IMG/VR virus record: IMGVR_UViG_3300025047_000001
Span: 1 to 20,480 of that record
Reading direction: 5' to 3' (one strand)
Length of the DNA stretch: 20,480 nucleotides
Source: a virus
A program made the translations under genes and the position numbers. Shown here piece after piece: positions 4,256-19,651 of the stretch. The notes under the pieces were generated by a model that saw only the letters and a program-made list of their open reading frames with translations, made no database searches and was not told where the DNA came from. Each line of letters starts with the position of its first letter. Positions within the stretch are counted from its first letter, which is position 1.

Positions 4256-4449
4256 GTAAGGACGTTATTGATAGAGCCCAGGAGCTGGTGAATCGACCTC
4301 CAACCATGGAAACCGCTCGCCACATAGGTCGGCTTATAAGCCAGGCCAACGGTGAAGAGAAAGACTTCATCTACGATTTGATAGAGTCGTTCCTGATGCA
4401 GGTTGAAGAGCCGAGCCTGCGCGAGAGCCTGCTTGAGGAGATAGGTTAA
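4252..4449 (+). CDS. Small acidic protein coupled to F; candidate immunity/inhibitor, function unknown
   Basis: A protein of 65 residues whose ATG overlaps the F stop (ATGA, 4252-4255) and whose stop TAA shares a base with the ATG of gene G (TAATG). The coding frame is therefore wedged between F and G without free DNA, which supports real translation. The protein is strongly acidic (about 14 Asp/Glu against about 7 Lys/Arg), looks all-helical, and has no signal peptide, membrane segment or cysteine. I do not recognise the family. In phage Mu itself F and G are neighbours, so this gene is an addition directly behind the F metallopeptidase domain, the position expected for an immunity or inhibitor protein. 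That role is inference. A small head-assembly accessory protein is the main alternative. Confidence 0.75.
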   Translation: MSKDVIDRAQELVNRPPTMETARHIGRLISQANGEEKDFIYDLIESFLMQVEEPSLRESLLEEIG

Positions 4450-4886
4450 TGGCCGGTGCCCGAATTGTTGTCAATGGCAGCACGGCGATTATAAGCCAGG
4501 CAATTAAGTCACTGCGTGACCAGAGTAAAAGCTTAGCTGAACCCAACGCAGAAGTTGGTGAATACCTGATTGAATCGCACCAGGACAGATTCGACGATGC
4601 GGTCTCTCCCGAAGGCGACAGCTGGGAACCACTATCAGAAGAGTACAAAGCCCGGTCTAAGCGCCCCAGTGACATTCTGATAGAAGACGGTATTTTAAAA
4701 GGCACGTTAAATTACAACGCAGGGCAGAACGAACTGCTGTTTGGTACGCCGATGGAATACGGTGCAGCTCACCACTTTGGTTATGAGAAACGAAATTTAC
4801 CCGCCCGCCCCTGGCTCGGATTATCCGATACCGATGTTGATGTGGTTGTTTCGATTTTTCGGGCGCATCTCTCAGAAGCGATTTAA
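4449..4886 (+). CDS. G: Phage virion morphogenesis protein, Mu G-like (tail completion / head-tail joining)
   Basis: 145 residues, matching the phage virion morphogenesis family that includes Mu gpG and P2 gpS-type tail completion proteins. Recognisable features are ESHQDRFDDAVSPEGDSWEPLS around residues 40-60, a DGILKGTLNY segment, a YGAAHHFG segment near residue 105, and LPARPWLGLSDTD near the C-terminus. Members act at the head-tail interface during virion completion. The start overlaps the previous stop by one base. The conserved late operon is interrupted after this gene: the next 135 bases are a non-coding leader in front of a cargo gene of different composition. Confidence 0.88.
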   Translation: MAGARIVVNGSTAIISQAIKSLRDQSKSLAEPNAEVGEYLIESHQDRFDDAVSPEGDSWEPLSEEYKARSKRPSDILIEDGILKGTLNYNAGQNELLFGTPMEYGAAHHFGYEKRNLPARPWLGLSDTDVDVVVSIFRAHLSEAI

Positions 4887-4951
4887 GCGCTTTAAACTGG
4901 TTTATTGCTACGATGGTTCGATGTAACCCCTTGTAATCGACTGACGGAAAA

Positions 4952-4990
4952 TTTAAACGGGTTTTAAACGGGGGTATAGGGTTGTATTCT
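4952..4990 (+). promoter_or_regulatory. Putative promoter/operator leader of the cargo gene with tandem TTTAAACGGG
   Basis: The 134 bases between G and the cargo gene form the largest non-coding stretch of the window. TTTAAACGGG is repeated with an 11-bp period at 4952-4961 and 4963-4972, about one helical turn, as expected for a pair of protein-binding half-sites or overlapping AT elements. Possible -10 hexamers are TATAGG (4975-4980) and TATTCT (4985-4990). No good -35 match is seen, so the promoter is a weak call made mainly from context: an independent leader in an otherwise gapless operon. A third TTTAAAC lies at 4891-4897. Confidence 0.35.
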
Positions 4991-5006
4991 AGTCGAAATT
5001 TAATTC

Positions 5007-5013
5007 AAGGAGG
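5007..5013 (+). promoter_or_regulatory. Strong Shine-Dalgarno AAGGAGG fixing the GTG start at 5021
   Basis: A perfect AAGGAGG lies 7 nt before GTG at 5021, while the frame-compatible TTG at 4982 has no such site. This makes 5021 the start of the cargo protein. It is the best ribosome binding site in the window, which suggests efficient and independent translation. Confidence 0.85.
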
Positions 5014-5020
5014 AAATACT

Positions 5021-5872
5021 GTGTCAAAAGGTGATTCTAAAGACGACGAAAGTATTGTTACTAAAATCTGGATTGCGTTTGGACTGGCCTTTCTAGCCGT
5101 TGTTATTCTTTATTTTGCTTTTGTTGTCACTAACGCGGAAAACTTTTCCCAGGTGACTGCAGAAGGTTTCTCTGGATTCGGAGCATTTGTAGGTGGCGTC
5201 GGAGGGACTTTGTTTTCTGCTATCGCTGCGGGTCTAGTTTACATGGCCTATTCAACTCAGAAAAAAGAACTGGCCAACTCAGTCAAGGCGTTAACTGAAA
5301 CACAAAGAAACCAAGAGCTTCAAAGTAACTTATCTGCCTTAACCCCTGTTATGACTAAGATAGAATATGATTTTAACCGAAGAGTTGTTTGTTGGTTCTC
5401 TGAGGATAGTGAGCAGTCAACAGCTGAATATGACGCATCCTCCGGGGCGTATTTGGCTGCTGCATATATTGGGCTTAATTTTAATCAACCTGTCGCACTC
5501 TCTGAAGTCCAGCCTCTTAACCCAGACAATGAGGATGGATTTGAATCTCCAATGGTTGAGCTACTTTCTGGCTCTATTTCTTCGGTTAACTACAATGGCC
5601 AAAAAAAGCTTCGTTTCTTTTTGATTCAATTCATCATTCAAGTTACATCGGCCATGCAAATCGTTAAAAACATGCATGACAATAAAGCCTCTGCCCATTT
5701 TTATGCTTCGACTGCATTACTACTAGAAGAGGTTAATCAAACATTAACCTGCGTTTTCAACGCGATTGCAGTTGATGAGGAGATACCTTCCCAACATGCC
5801 TGGTGTCGTAATTTTCTAAAAGCATCTTCTGATCTAGATGAAGTGCTCAACGAAATCCACAGCGAAAAGTAG
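5021..5872 (+). CDS. Two-helix membrane protein, putative abortive-infection (putAbiC-like) cargo gene
   Basis: 283 residues from the GTG at 5021. A short charged N-terminus precedes a transmembrane helix at about 15-37. A second hydrophobic segment at about 53-78 is rich in Phe, Gly and Ala (FSGFGAFVGGVGG). A charged, probably coiled-coil helix follows (KKELANSVKALTETQRNQEL, about 81-100), then a soluble domain of about 180 residues. The F-G-x-F-x-G-G second helix running into a heptad-like linker resembles proteins annotated as putative phage abortive infection (putAbiC) proteins. That match is from memory and moderate. Base composition and codon use are visibly AT-richer than the neighbouring head genes. 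No virion role is expected at this place in a Mu-like operon, so it is probably a moron gene. Inference: it acts at the inner membrane to exclude or abort other phages. It could also be some other signalling membrane protein. Confidence 0.7.
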   Translation: MSKGDSKDDESIVTKIWIAFGLAFLAVVILYFAFVVTNAENFSQVTAEGFSGFGAFVGGVGGTLFSAIAAGLVYMAYSTQKKELANSVKALTETQRNQELQSNLSALTPVMTKIEYDFNRRVVCWFSEDSEQSTAEYDASSGAYLAAAYIGLNFNQPVALSEVQPLNPDNEDGFESPMVELLSGSISSVNYNGQKKLRFFLIQFIIQVTSAMQIVKNMHDNKASAHFYASTALLLEEVNQTLTCVFNAIAVDEEIPSQHAWCRNFLKASSDLDEVLNEIHSEK

Positions 5873-5904
5873 CAAAACGCTTTAATCCCCCTCCTCGCGT
5901 AATC

Positions 5905-5921
5905 GCCGCCATCATGGCGGC
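5905..5921 (+). other. Perfect 17-bp palindrome/hairpin directly before the protease start
   Basis: GCCGCC (5905-5910), ATCAT, GGCGGC (5916-5921): the whole 17 bp is a perfect inverted repeat around its central base. As RNA it folds to a 6-bp GC stem with a 5-base loop. It ends one base before the ATG at 5922. No U-run follows, so it is not a standard intrinsic terminator. It may shape translation of protease I, end the cargo transcript in part, or bind a protein. Confidence 0.6.
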
Positions 5922-7097
5922 ATGAAAAGAAAAAACACCCCAAATCCAATTGTCGCTTTGACGACCAACCGCCCGAACAGTGATGTTTCGGGCATGGCCG
6001 TAATGAGCACCATCATCTCGCTGGCCGATTCGGGCAAACAGCGCGTCCAGTTGCTGCCCGATGGTGAATTCCGCGCTAAAGACGGTCGTCCGTTCGACGC
6101 ACCTCACTGGCTGCTAAACCAGGACGTTGCCGACCGCCTTATTAGCAAAGTCTCTGCCCGCGCTAATGATCTGCACTTTGACTACGAGCACCAGACCCTT
6201 AACTCCGAAGCCAACGGTAAAGAAGCACCGGCGGCGGGCTGGTTCCGTGAGCTGGAGTACGTGCCAGGTGAAGGTTTGTTTGCGCTTGAACCGGACTGGA
6301 CGCCCAAAGCCAAGACCTACATTGATAACAAAGAATACCGCTACGTGTCGGCTGTGTTTGCCTACGACAAAGAAACCGGCGAAGTCACTGACCTTTACCA
6401 CGCGGCTCTGACCAACGACCCCGGCCTGGACGGCATGAAGTCCCTGGCGGCAATGAAACATTTCACACCCAGTTCCCAACAGCCCGAGTCCTCGGGCATT
6501 CAACCACAACAGGAAGATAGTCCGATGAACGAAGCAATGAAACTGTTGCTGACGACGTTAGGCATCAAATTCGAGGATAAAGACCTCGATGATAAAGCCG
6601 CCTGTAAAAAGCTCGCTGACAAGGCTAATGAAGCGATTGCCGCATTAACGGCAAAAGCTCAAGCCTCCGACGAGCTGACGACAGAAGTCACAGCACTGAA
6701 ACAACAGCAGGTCGATCCGGCCAAATACGTTCCGATTGAAGTGGCAACCGAGTTGCGTGAGCAAATCGCAGCACTCAAAAGCGGCGGTGATGAAGCGGCA
6801 ATTACTGCGTTGATTGACACCGCTCGTTCGGAAGGTCGCTTGCTGGCCTCAGAACAAGAATGGGCGAAACAGCTGGCTGAGAAGCACGGCGTTGACGCTC
6901 TGAAATCGAACCTTGAATCACGCCCGTCGGTTGCGGCGCTCACGCGTGACAACAAGGACGAGGCATCAGGTAAGAACGGTAAAACCGTCACCAAACCTGA
7001 TGGGGAAGAAACCGAGTTAACAGCGGACGAATTGGCTATCTGTAAAGCCTGCAATATCGACGCTGAAGACTACAAGAAACAGCGAGGTGTTCAGTAA
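5922..7097 (+). CDS. I: Prohead protease, Mu-like I protein
   Basis: 391 residues, in the Mu-like prophage I protein family. The enzyme cleaves the scaffold and other prohead proteins during capsid maturation. Family hallmarks near the N-terminus are VQLLPDGEFRAKDGRP, then DLHFDYEHQTLNSE, YIDNKEYRYVSAVFAYDKETG, and ALTNDPGLDGM at about residue 165, where the protease domain ends. A Gln/Pro-rich linker leads into the scaffold-like half, which has a helical, charged Lys/Glu region and a conserved-looking C-terminal segment LTADELAICKACNIDAEDYKKQ. The ATG at 5922 is chosen because the preceding residues resemble the family's start. It has no clear ribosome binding site and abuts a hairpin, so a later start (5994 or 6003) is possible. 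Confidence 0.88.
   Translation: MKRKNTPNPIVALTTNRPNSDVSGMAVMSTIISLADSGKQRVQLLPDGEFRAKDGRPFDAPHWLLNQDVADRLISKVSARANDLHFDYEHQTLNSEANGKEAPAAGWFRELEYVPGEGLFALEPDWTPKAKTYIDNKEYRYVSAVFAYDKETGEVTDLYHAALTNDPGLDGMKSLAAMKHFTPSSQQPESSGIQPQQEDSPMNEAMKLLLTTLGIKFEDKDLDDKAACKKLADKANEAIAALTAKAQASDELTTEVTALKQQQVDPAKYVPIEVATELREQIAALKSGGDEAAITALIDTARSEGRLLASEQEWAKQLAEKHGVDALKSNLESRPSVAALTRDNKDEASGKNGKTVTKPDGEETELTADELAICKACNIDAEDYKKQRGVQ
6511..6516 (+). promoter_or_regulatory. Internal Shine-Dalgarno AGGAAG for the nested scaffold start
   Basis: AGGAAG lies 8 nt before the ATG at 6525, inside the protease gene and in the same frame. It sits in the linker just after the ALTNDPGLDGM end of the protease domain, where Mu-type I genes hold the start of the scaffold gene Z. 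Confidence 0.75.
6525..7097 (+). CDS. Z: Nested in-frame capsid scaffold protein, Mu Z-like
   Basis: Translation from the internal ATG at 6525 yields a 190-residue protein (beginning MNEAMKLLLTTLG) identical to the C-terminal part of I. It is highly charged and largely helical, with Lys/Ala/Glu-rich stretches (KKLADKANEAIAALTAKAQ) that suggest coiled coil, as expected for a scaffold. In Mu the scaffold Z is made in just this way from inside I, which supplies many scaffold copies per protease copy. The clear AGGAAG site supports a real start. The product is predicted to fill the prohead beneath the T shell and be removed by I. Confidence 0.78.
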   Translation: MNEAMKLLLTTLGIKFEDKDLDDKAACKKLADKANEAIAALTAKAQASDELTTEVTALKQQQVDPAKYVPIEVATELREQIAALKSGGDEAAITALIDTARSEGRLLASEQEWAKQLAEKHGVDALKSNLESRPSVAALTRDNKDEASGKNGKTVTKPDGEETELTADELAICKACNIDAEDYKKQRGVQ

Positions 7098-15983: not shown

Positions 15984-18900
15984 TGCCTCCTGCTGTCGCT
16001 GCCGTTGCCGCCGGGGTTGTAGCAGGTGCTGCCGCCAGCTCTGTCGTTGTGGGCATTGCTGTTGCCATTGGTACCGTCGCTCTACAGAACTCGTTAAAAC
16101 CGGAAATGCCAGGTGTTGAAGAGGCCGTCAATGAGTCACAGACTCTGACCACGACACCGCTTCAACCGCACCGCGGCGTTTATGGCGAGTGCGTCGTATC
16201 TGGCTCTATTGTGGGTTATGGCAAACGCAAGATGGGTGAAAAAGAGGCTCACGTTGTCGTTGTGACATTAGCCGGCCACCAAATCGAATCGGCTGAGCTT
16301 TATGAAGTAAATGGTAAACAAAAACCCTCCGGTACCACTGCTGAGATTGTCCGGGGCGACCAGACAACCGTTAATCAAACCGCACTACAATACTGCGACG
16401 GCTGGACAGCAGACCATATTGGTTTTGGTCGGGCTTACGCCGTGATAACGATACCAATTGACCCGGAAGAAATGCCGTCAGGGCTTCAGAACATCACATT
16501 TAAAGTGAAAGGCAAACGCGTTTACGATCCACGCAAAGACAGCACAGTTGGCGGCAGCGGCTCTCACCGCTCCAATAATGAGTCCACGTGGGAATGGTCT
16601 GATAACTCTATTTTGTGTGCGTTTGATTACCAACGGTTTCATGGGTTTCGTCAACTTAGCCTGAACAAATTTGACTTGGCTCACGTTATGAGCCAGGCAA
16701 ATATCTGTGATGAGTTAGTCGACTATACCGACAGCGACGGCGAACAGCAGAGTGAAAAACGTTTTACCTGCAACGGCTCCTGGACGTTTGACCAATCACC
16801 TCCGAAAGTACTGGAGCGGCTCATTAGCTCATGCGGTGGTAAATCATACCGCCGTGGCGGCAAAATATATCTGCAAACAGCCAGCTACCATGGCATGGCC
16901 GAAATGACCCTCACCGATACCGATGCTGCCGGTGAGATAATCATTACCCCACACCGTGAATTAAAAGACCGTTGCAACCTGGTTCGGGCGTCATTACAAG
17001 ACCCGAAAAAAGGCTATCAACCCGCCGATGCGCCAGTAGTGACGAATGCCATCTATGTGGAACGTGACGGGATGGAGCTTGAAGACGAGCTTCAGCTGAA
17101 CTTTACCAATTCGGCGACCATGGCGCAGCGCCTGATGAAATACCACCTTGAGCGCAATCGCGCCGGGATGCGTATTCAGTTTCCATGCAAAGCAAAAGGT
17201 TTGTTGGCCATGGCAGGAACGACGGTGCACGTCGACTTGCCCAATGAAGGCATTGATAAAGAGTTTATCGTAAGCGACTGGGGCTTTGATGTTGATTCGA
17301 AAAAGGTTTCACTGGTGCTTGAGGAAGAGTCCCCTGCTCTTTATAGCGATAGTCTGGTGCCTTCTGAAGGCGACGTAACACCCAATACTGACCTACCAGA
17401 TTTAACGCGCCCGGAGCCACCCGAGTCTTTATCATTTGTTCTCGACCCAATATCGACCCACAGACAAGGTTACGTTACCTGGTCACATCCTATATCGCGC
17501 GCTGTGACTGAGTACCGAGTGGTGATCCGTAAAGACGGTGACAACATCGTTGAGTACCCGGTTATTGCGCGAAGCGGCGCTCGGCTAAAACAGGACATCA
17601 ACGGACTTGATGCCGGGCAGTACAGTCTTGAAATATACGCACGCAACCGATACGACCGGATGTCGTTGCCGGCCACTATTTCGTTAACCCTGAATATTCC
17701 GTCGCCTCCAACCAACTTAGGCATTACTGCCGGCAACTGGGAAGTAACTTCTGCCCCCGTATTAAGTGGCGTTGGCCTGGGCACAGTATTTGAGTTCGCT
17801 TTTGAAGAAGTAACCAACATCATCGGGCTTGGCATGACTATCGTTAAGCCTGGTTTAAGACCGGAAACAGAGCACACACTTTACGCTCGGACAGTTAATC
17901 CGCTGGGTAAGTCTGACTGGGTATCAGAGACCTTTACGACAACGGACCACGACGAACAACTTTCTCCCTGGCTTCAGGGTATTCGTGAAGAGCTGGATGC
18001 GGTCGATCTAGTCATTGATAACTGGGATAGCTGGAATCCGGCACGGGAGGTTTCTGAGCAACTGACTAATATCTTTAGTGACCATAAGCGTCAGGAAGAT
18101 AACCGAGCGACTTTAGAGGTTGCAAGAGATGCAGGTCGAGCCGCAGACGGAGCTTTAGAGGCTATAAATGGGATAAGAGCGGAAATTGACGACCCTGTCA
18201 GCGGGCTGGGCGCTACCTTTGAATTTGCGCAGCAAATAAAAACTACTGTCGACGGAAATACCAATGCACTAAATACACTGGGTAATAGTGTTTATGATGA
18301 AAACACTGGGTTAAGCGCAACCAACCAAATTGCCCAATCGGCAAAAACAACCGCTGAAAATAACGGCCAGTCTATAACTCAAATAATAACAAGAGTGGAT
18401 GATGCTGAGTCTGGTATCAATGCCCAGGCCAACCTAATACAAGAGGTGCAACAGTCTGCTGCGAATAACGCTAGTTCGATAAGTCAACTACAAACCACTG
18501 TAGGCGACCCCGACACAGGGCTTAGCGCGACGAATACACTGGCTCAGTCCGCAAAGACTGGGGCCAATAATAACGCCAGTGCCATAAGCGGGTTAGATTC
18601 GCGGGTTGAGAGTAACGAAGAGTTTGCTGCCGCGCAGCTTCAGTTGAATGCGACCTATGACAATGAGCTCGACCAGTTGGTTGCGAGAGCTGCCTTAATT
18701 ACGGACGTTAACGACCGTATCACCGGGATGATAATAGAAGACGATGGCATTGAACGTAAGCTTGAATTTATCGGCGATAGCGCCCGTTTTGTTGATGGTA
18801 ACGGGCAGTTAAAAGTCTACTTCAGCTTAACTCAGGGGCGGTTCGTCTTTGATGGCCATGTCGTCGCTCGCAGTGGATCATTTGCAGGTGAATTGCAGGC

Positions 18901-19651
18901 CGCTTCCGGAACCTTCACGGGTGAGCTTCAAGCGGCAACGGGCACGTTTAAAGGCGATTTACAGGCCGCTGAAGGAACGTTCTCAGGTGACCTTGAAGCC
19001 GCAGGCGGAACATTTTCAGGATTATTGCAAGCTGCCGGTGGGACGTTTACCGGCAGCCTTATCGCGGCTAGCGGTTCTTTCTCGGGAAGTATTACCGGCG
19101 CAACCGGAACCTTTGAAGGAGCTGTCCGCGCCGAGAAGATTATCGGGGACGTGTTTAACGTAAAACGCGTGACCCCACCATACTCTAACCGCTGGTACTC
19201 AAGTAATTTTTCTTCCACCGTTTCTGAGCGTCGGGTGCTACGCGTTAGCATGCCGGCGCTCAATAAAAGCCGAACTCTAAAGTTCACCAATCTAACTCTC
19301 GGCTTCGGTAATGCAAATCTTACCAGTGGTGAATCTGCACTCGGCACTGTCCGGGCTAAAAAAGCGAATGGCCAGACACTGAAAACATGGAATATCGACC
19401 TGACAGGCCGAGCTCATGCAGGCTTTTACGTCGACTTTGGCTTTGGGGAAATGAACGTTATTGATGATGTTCAACTCTCAGCGAACGACACCATTGTCGA
19501 CTTCACAATTCAAGTTCATAGCGTAACCGGCAGTCCGAATTTTGAATTGATTGCAGGTGTCTCGTTAGCGAACAACGTATTAGAAAACTATCACTTCGTC
19601 CAGGTTGAATCTGTGCTGAAAAATAGCACGGCTGGAATATCATTTTCGTGA
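15983..19651 (+). CDS. J-like tail tip attachment / host specificity protein
   Basis: 1222 residues, the last tip protein before the fibre. An Ala/Val/Gly-rich hydrophobic segment occupies residues 1-35. A hub-type region follows to about 470, including a TPLQPHRGVYGECVVSGSIVG stretch near residue 52 and an FTCNGSWTFDQSPPKVLERLI segment near 258. Residues about 475-650 look like two fibronectin type III domains (YRVVIRKDGD, YSLEIYARNRYDR, HTLYARTVNPLGKSDW). Residues about 670-890 are helical with heptad-like repeats, suggesting a trimeric coiled coil. Next comes a short DUF1983-like section (RFVDGNGQLKVYFSLTQGRFVFDG), then eight 11-residue Gly/Phe repeats (965-1052), and a beta C-terminal domain. 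The whole matches a trimeric central fibre. The C-terminal domain is the likely host contact. The ATG overlaps the previous stop by one base. Confidence 0.9.
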   Translation: MPPAVAAVAAGVVAGAAASSVVVGIAVAIGTVALQNSLKPEMPGVEEAVNESQTLTTTPLQPHRGVYGECVVSGSIVGYGKRKMGEKEAHVVVVTLAGHQIESAELYEVNGKQKPSGTTAEIVRGDQTTVNQTALQYCDGWTADHIGFGRAYAVITIPIDPEEMPSGLQNITFKVKGKRVYDPRKDSTVGGSGSHRSNNESTWEWSDNSILCAFDYQRFHGFRQLSLNKFDLAHVMSQANICDELVDYTDSDGEQQSEKRFTCNGSWTFDQSPPKVLERLISSCGGKSYRRGGKIYLQTASYHGMAEMTLTDTDAAGEIIITPHRELKDRCNLVRASLQDPKKGYQPADAPVVTNAIYVERDGMELEDELQLNFTNSATMAQRLMKYHLERNRAGMRIQFPCKAKGLLAMAGTTVHVDLPNEGIDKEFIVSDWGFDVDSKKVSLVLEEESPALYSDSLVPSEGDVTPNTDLPDLTRPEPPESLSFVLDPISTHRQGYVTWSHPISRAVTEYRVVIRKDGDNIVEYPVIARSGARLKQDINGLDAGQYSLEIYARNRYDRMSLPATISLTLNIPSPPTNLGITAGNWEVTSAPVLSGVGLGTVFEFAFEEVTNIIGLGMTIVKPGLRPETEHTLYARTVNPLGKSDWVSETFTTTDHDEQLSPWLQGIREELDAVDLVIDNWDSWNPAREVSEQLTNIFSDHKRQEDNRATLEVARDAGRAADGALEAINGIRAEIDDPVSGLGATFEFAQQIKTTVDGNTNALNTLGNSVYDENTGLSATNQIAQSAKTTAENNGQSITQIITRVDDAESGINAQANLIQEVQQSAANNASSISQLQTTVGDPDTGLSATNTLAQSAKTGANNNASAISGLDSRVESNEEFAAAQLQLNATYDNELDQLVARAALITDVNDRITGMIIEDDGIERKLEFIGDSARFVDGNGQLKVYFSLTQGRFVFDGHVVARSGSFAGELQAASGTFTGELQAATGTFKGDLQAAEGTFSGDLEAAGGTFSGLLQAAGGTFTGSLIAASGSFSGSITGATGTFEGAVRAEKIIGDVFNVKRVTPPYSNRWYSSNFSSTVSERRVLRVSMPALNKSRTLKFTNLTLGFGNANLTSGESALGTVRAKKANGQTLKTWNIDLTGRAHAGFYVDFGFGEMNVIDDVQLSANDTIVDFTIQVHSVTGSPNFELIAGVSLANNVLENYHFVQVESVLKNSTAGISFS
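18302..18574 (+). repeat. 70-residue period repeat in the J stalk
   Basis: NTGLSATNQIAQSAKTTAENN (from 18302) and DTGLSATNTLAQSAKTGANNN (from 18512) are near copies 210 bases apart, and an earlier looser copy (SGLGATFEFAQQIKTTVDGN) lies near 18200. The units appear to be stacked segments of the helical stalk. Confidence 0.7.
18875..19138 (+). repeat. Eight tandem 33-bp (11-residue) repeats in the J-like gene
   Basis: Exact 33-base period with no indels: eight units with the consensus G-[TS]-F-x-G-x-[LIV]-x-x-A-x, from GSFAGELQAAS (18875) to GTFEGAVRAEK (ending 19138). Fixed Gly, Phe and Gly positions suggest a stacked beta-helix or triple-stranded beta stalk. The DNA copies differ at many third positions, so the array is old but could still change length by recombination. 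Confidence 0.92.

Follow-up and report, generated by a model that had tools for sequence, protein, structure and literature searches.

In phage Mu, a strong gyrase site (SGS) with phased AT tracts lies between the head genes G and I, at the center of the genome. Strong cleavage by DNA gyrase and a requirement in the pairing of prophage ends characterize this site. Its right arm is essential and carries repeated bending motifs, and deletion of the SGS delays replication by about 100 min (PMC10052514). A 2021 paper called the conservation of the SGS in transposable phages unclear and reported Pato's remark that, where the SGS would be expected, D3112 had gained anti-CRISPR genes (PMC8705779). 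In the Mu-like phages of Pseudomonas aeruginosa, a variable region with anti-CRISPR genes was described in 2014 as RGP G (PMC4378225); in D3112, JBD30, and Ab30, it consists of low-GC variable accessory genes between G and protease I. Fixed sites with exchangeable anti-phage genes are also described for other temperate phages, namely P2-like phages and P4-like satellites (PMC9122126), although both the phage group and the site differ from those considered here.

Here, we describe the G–I interval of a marine Mu-like siphophage from a 20,480-base viral record, a genome fragment (hereafter, the window). Its gene content includes the terminase, portal, F, G, protease I, capsid T, and tail genes. 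An earlier note on this DNA, made from the letters alone, had singled out one gene of the interval, here called X, as an inserted membrane-protein gene likely to serve superinfection exclusion or defense, at a site that may be a cargo hotspot in related phages.

A gene of distinct composition between G and I

X is the sole open reading frame of the interval at 4887–5921 (Table 1) and stands apart from the rest of the window in composition. Its GC content is 41.3%, compared to 51.0 ± 1.8% in the other 20 genes, and its GC3 is 35.9%, compared to 54.3 ± 4.7%. Outside the interval, every 852-nt segment of the window has a GC content of at least 46.1%. The Shine-Dalgarno sequence of X reaches −11.4 kcal/mol, and no convincing sigma-70 promoter was recognized in a search upstream of the gene. 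The earlier picture of an insert with different composition, with the best ribosome binding site in the window, and with a two-helix membrane protein of 283 residues as its product was accurate on each of these points.

Table 1. Features of the G–I interval and its flanks (window coordinates)
Feature	Position	Strand	Remark
Head gene G (tail completion / Neck1), left flank of the cargo site	4449–4886	+	phrog_26, E = 1.3e-28
Resident strong-gyrase-site-like element, not cargo	4946–4981	+	Core TTTAAACGGGTTTTAAAC at 4952–4969; AT tracts 11 bp apart
Ribosome binding site of X, AAGGAGG	5007–5013	+	Strongest of 21 genes
X, accessory gene, 283 aa, GTG start	5021–5872	+	Two-helix membrane hairpin (hydrophobic helices aa 18–36 and 55–73), coiled-coil linker, helical C-terminal domain
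Family motif region, aa 51–59, leading into helix 2	5171–5197	+	G54, G58, and G59 invariant; G51 nearly invariant
Resident right-junction box AAAGTAGCAAAACGCTTTAATCCC, holding the stop codon of X	5866–5889	+	Also in cargo-free relatives
Hairpin GCCGCCATCATGGCGGC, abutting the start codon of I	5905–5921	+	
Gene I (head maturation protease / scaffold), right flank	5922–7097	+	phrog_328, E = 2.8e-102

Close relatives retain the empty site

A search with the protease returned 61 IMG/VR loci and 15 genome loci. The nearest chromosomal relatives were Idiomarina prophages, and Idiomarina is therefore the most likely host of this phage. The seven closest relatives (L002–L006, with proteases 89–91% identical, and L007–L008, at 71%) lack X and have no gene between G and I, only an intact site of 261–267 nt. 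The head operon had been described in the earlier note as broken only at this point. The gap is indeed the largest in the window (134 + 49 nt, compared to at most 71 nt elsewhere), but because the cargo-free relatives carry non-coding DNA there as well, the break is ancestral rather than a product of the insertion.

When the window was aligned with these relatives, the left 90 nt of the interval proved to be shared with them, up to about 4976–4990. Foreign DNA runs from there to about 5865, and from about 5866 the right box AAAGTAGCAAAACnCTTTAATCCC is again shared, with the stop codon of X (TAG, 5870–5872) falling inside this resident sequence. A promoter-like TTGAAA-17-GATAGT precedes I in the cargo-free relatives; in the window, X has taken its place. 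Because the foreign DNA is bounded by resident sequence on both sides, X replaced about 140 nt and was not simply added. The idea that the insert brought its own leader had to be abandoned, since most of 4887–4975 is a conserved resident element that is also found in the cargo-free relatives.

The absence of X from its nearest relatives likewise disposes of the alternative that the gene is present in all of them, and the comparison of G–I intervals upholds its accessory status. X resembles a moron in that it is an extra gene between two core genes, is absent in relatives, and differs in composition. Its accessory status is strongly supported, and X is best regarded as a gene of the moron type.

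The G–I site is a cargo hotspot

Of the 56 distinct phages in the protease-only sample, 37 carry cargo of 0.45–4.5 kb between G and I, and the remaining 19 are empty. This cargo is varied, as expected of the proposed hotspot. Recognizable defense genes include Septu PtuA (E = 3e-117) and PtuB (E = 6e-74) in L019 and AbiTii (E = 1.5e-39) in L016. In L030, the site is filled by an ion-channel-like protein together with one resembling an ATPase; pentapeptide repeats occur in L046, and several membrane proteins are also among the cargo. Non-defense cargo includes SGNH hydrolase and small lipoproteins. In L019 (737–4901), a single G–I interval combines Septu PtuA/PtuB with a lipoprotein and a two-helix protein, and the gyrase-site-like element lies between them.

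Annotated isolates hold AcrF2 (D3112), AcrF1 with a winged-HTH gene (JBD30), AcrE1/AcrF3 (HW12), and two anti-CRISPRs (Ab30) in the same gap, and the gap of Shewanella phage vB_SspS_MuM16-1 (hereafter, MuM16-1) holds a two-helix protein, an HTH gene, and a retron-type reverse transcriptase. According to its authors, the reverse transcriptase element of MuM16-1 is missing from sister prophages (PMC8541194). In the annotations of D3112, JBD30, Ab30, and HW12, the anti-CRISPR locus lies between the G homolog and protease I. The hotspot is thus not new, because the G–I site is the anti-CRISPR locus of P. aeruginosa Mu-like phages (PMC4378225); to the Pseudomonas phages in which it had been recognized, the present survey adds many marine gammaproteobacterial ones. 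The marine phages differ from RGP G in carrying larger cargo, often membrane proteins and full defense systems.

A gyrase-site-like element adjoins the cargo

Copies of the resident sequence CGGAAAATTTAAACGGGTTTTAAACGGGG, altered in clade-specific ways, are found in G–I gaps whether or not these contain cargo. Scored with a leave-one-out matrix, the element is the best match in the window (36.6 bits vs. 17.1 for the next), and in 52 of 68 distinct groups the best match of the whole locus falls inside the gap. The best match is outside the gap in the other 16 groups, several of which have variant TTATAAA elements. The element usually lies 60–110 nt after G and otherwise sits just past cargo on its G side. 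Cargo is found to the left, to the right, or on both sides of it, and the four matrix matches that overlap open reading frames all overlap short ones.

Complete phages not used in training gave a similar picture. In seven of eight (Mu, ZX4290, MuM16-1, VW-6B, D3112, Ab30, and HW12), the genome-best match lies in the G–I gap, and 0 of 100 shuffles reached its score. The element stands at 48.8–52.7% of these seven genomes, a central position that refers to complete phages, the window being a fragment. Phage B3 has no element; its best match scores 2.5 bits and lies outside the gap. In Mu, the match at 17909–17944 (25.4 bits vs. 15.7 for the next; 0 of 100 shuffles) is 30 bp to the right of the gyrase cut annotated at 17879/17880, in the right arm of the SGS. 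AT tracts around the aligned elements have a period of 10–10.5 bp, judged against random row shifts and uncorrected for kinship, and a third AT tract 20–21 bp upstream of the element is common to Mu, ZX4290, and many marine phages. By contrast with the marine phages, in which the element is forward, it is inverted in D3112, Ab30, and HW12, and in the P. aeruginosa Mu-like phages it follows the cargo.

Two further observations concern single loci. The interval of L099 contains two strong copies of the element. In Ab30 (L177), the SGS candidate published at 18,736–18,772 (PMC5977238) falls on the gap that separates G from the first anti-CRISPR gene; the matrix element differs from this candidate and lies at 19,628, about 0.9 kb further on and after the cargo.

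At the other end of the interval, protease gene I has no clear Shine-Dalgarno sequence. Most of the 68 loci, Mu included, have a strong hairpin of clade-specific sequence that ends 0–6 nt before the I start codon, and in the Shewanella/MuM16-1 clade this hairpin is an intrinsic terminator with its T run directly before the ATG. It is possible that the hairpin acts as a terminator insulating the cargo site or, instead, in translational control of I. A search of Rfam gave no match in the window.

X resembles a superfamily of two-helix membrane proteins

In direct searches, X had no match above threshold in Pfam, NCBIfam, or PADLOC, and the putAbiC model PF16872 was not listed for X at E values up to 1. 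A tblastn search of phages and plasmids found no close homolog, a search of IMG/VR by peptide patterns of X alone found no homolog, and 395 genomes from the order of the Idiomarina genome yielded only nine weak N-terminal matches. X matched phrog_8999 at E = 5.8e-7, and it aligns with same-site cargo proteins of six loci (L019, L022, L033, L037, L045, and L049), in which G54, G58, G59, Q80, and E83 are invariant. The residues that X conserves with this family form a glycine motif in a short loop (G51, G54, G58, and G59) and a pair in the linker (Q80 and E83).

The motif is common to a wider set of 63 phage proteins, of which 23 match PF16872. When X was left out of the profile, the profile still recovered it at E = 9.4e-8; among 2000 block shuffles that kept the composition of each segment, the best reached only 0.0023. 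Kinship of X with this superfamily is therefore real but remote, and the similarity is confined to the hairpin and linker. X has two transmembrane helices, the G54-G58-G59 and Q80-E83 residues, and predicted cytoplasmic ends, as superfamily members do; judged by these sequence features, it is a remote member of a putAbiC-like two-helix superfamily that is broader than the Pfam model. Two N-terminal transmembrane helices, a glycine motif before helix 2, a Q-x-x-E linker, and occurrence in temperate phages are common to X and PF16872. However, X is only 10–21% identical to other members, its GG motif is not followed by the usual N-P, and its C-terminal domain is its own. The resemblance to putAbiC-type proteins suggested earlier thus persists as a remote profile similarity of hairpin and linker, but it does not extend to a match with the Pfam model itself.

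The AlphaFold model of X consists of a helix hairpin, a long helix at residues 47–132, and a helical C-terminal part of low confidence (mean pLDDT 70 overall and below 50 at 141–186). No structural relatives of the model were found in BFVD or the PDB, and given the low confidence and the lack of a match, we make no fold claim for the C-terminal domain. Both ends of X are predicted to be cytoplasmic. The hairpin is predicted to lead into a long, coiled-coil-like helix, and the C-terminal domain, which differs from member to member, to be all-helical.

Two-helix genes recur at the same site

Genes of the two-helix family occupy the G–I gap in 16 of 68 distinct groups, that is, in X's own phage and about 15 others (L079 and L098 being the same locus). 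This set was enriched for the family by search, and the set sampled through the protease only gives 8 of 56. Tandem pairs occur in L106 and L117, and the genes are inverted at the site in L099, L104, and MuM16-1. Unlike these inverted copies, X is co-oriented with the head operon. Inverted copies cannot be expressed from the late transcript, and these at least must rely on a separate promoter. Inversion relative to the head operon was also noticed in L105.

The member in MuM16-1, p31, belongs to the same family as X, sits at the same G–I site, and comes from an inducible phage, but its gene is inverted and shares the site with an HTH gene and the retron-type reverse transcriptase (PMC8541194). 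Mass spectrometry of MuM16-1 identified eight virion proteins, and the two-helix homolog is not among them (PMC8541194), which speaks, if weakly, against X being a virion component.

Two gene arrangements were seen alongside the family. A recurrent cargo protein of about 400–430 aa with two C-terminal transmembrane helices occurs alone or directly upstream of a putAbiC-like two-helix gene (L033:2590–3810, L045:2698–3927, L047:2678–3889, L049:2588–3814, L052:2928–4232, L061:2749–4005, and L062:1960–3216). Its sole profile resemblance is a very weak SLATT match, and together with the two-helix gene it possibly forms an undescribed two-gene defense system. In L078 (862–2809) and L079 (289–2274), the two-helix gene adjoins a DUF2971-like gene, recognized by eye only, and these may be a gene pair.

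Interpretation of the element and of X

Because the Mu match falls in the right arm of the SGS, the G–I position is genome-central, and the AT tracts are phased, the leader element is quite probably a homolog of the Mu strong gyrase site. The marine elements are candidate gyrase sites, and B3 lacks such an element. If the marine sequence acts as a gyrase site, cleavage would fall about 30 bp left of TTTAAACGGG. The element could instead be the late promoter P_I or a site for a C-type activator, with X as a late gene under its control. In Mu, gene I does have a C-dependent promoter (PMC4461284), some marine phages have a second, weaker copy of the element ahead of tail genes, and the promoter-like sequence before I in the cargo-free relatives is the one that X replaced. 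Still, we find this doubtful: the Mu element lies 30–65 bp to the right of the annotated cut by gyrase, with no comparable second match in the genome, the orientation of the element is reversed in D3112, Ab30, and HW12, and phasing of AT tracts at 10–10.5 bp is what would be expected for DNA wrapped on gyrase.

The same site holds Septu, AbiTii, and a retron-type reverse transcriptase, and more than a third of the superfamily matches putAbiC; for these reasons, we regard X as reasonably likely to be a membrane-anchored anti-phage protein, with abortive infection taking the larger share of this expectation and superinfection exclusion the smaller. The earlier proposal of such a role is thus favored by the company at the site and by the family, although X itself has no defense-family match. 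Under this reading, the prophage would make X, which would oligomerize in the inner membrane, and its variable cytoplasmic domain may recognize an activity of an incoming phage. The hairpin would then either damage or depolarize the membrane, as in abortive infection, where an infected cell dies or ceases growth before phage is released, or block DNA entry, as in superinfection exclusion. By contrast, some cargo consists of SGNH hydrolase or small lipoproteins, and the anti-CRISPRs are counter-defense genes. X could itself be a counter-defense gene, an anti-restriction or anti-CRISPR analog acting early in infection like the acr genes of D3112 and JBD30, given the anti-CRISPR genes of these phages, HW12, and Ab30 at the very same site. 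Yet the same-site Acr proteins are short (about 65–150 aa in annotated records), compared to a membrane protein of 283 aa, and anti-CRISPR proteins of that kind are soluble. There is also no Aca-type regulator gene beside X, and its family includes the Pfam "putative phage abortive infection protein", all of which makes a counter-defense role improbable. A role in lysis, in the membrane, or in host fitness, that is, lysogenic conversion unrelated to defense through, for example, a membrane stress or ion-permeability protein, seems unlikely, if slightly less so. It would suit a membrane protein and the ion-channel-like, pentapeptide-repeat, and SGNH hydrolase proteins found among the other cargo of the site, but the Mu lysis genes are located upstream of the terminase, X is missing from close relatives, and recognized or candidate defense systems occupy the same site.

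A broader reading of the site is offered tentatively. Most Mu-like transposable phages may keep a strong gyrase site of phased TTTAAAC repeats in the G–I gap, and this could be the reason that defense, anti-CRISPR, and two-helix genes accumulate there. Cargo would enter beside the site, on either side and leaving it unbroken, perhaps via ends made by gyrase, and X would be a recent entry. The element and matrix data bear directly on the question of SGS conservation raised in 2021 (PMC8705779), and they provide concrete sequences in dozens of phages that can be used for tests. X appears to be a divergent member of a prophage membrane-protein family that has repeatedly arrived at one Mu-like site, and because this family adjoins proven defense systems, X is a good candidate for a new anti-phage protein. 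Above all, the cargo site adjoins a conserved, central, gyrase-site-like element, and the main interest of this locus lies in the link between the hotspot and that element.
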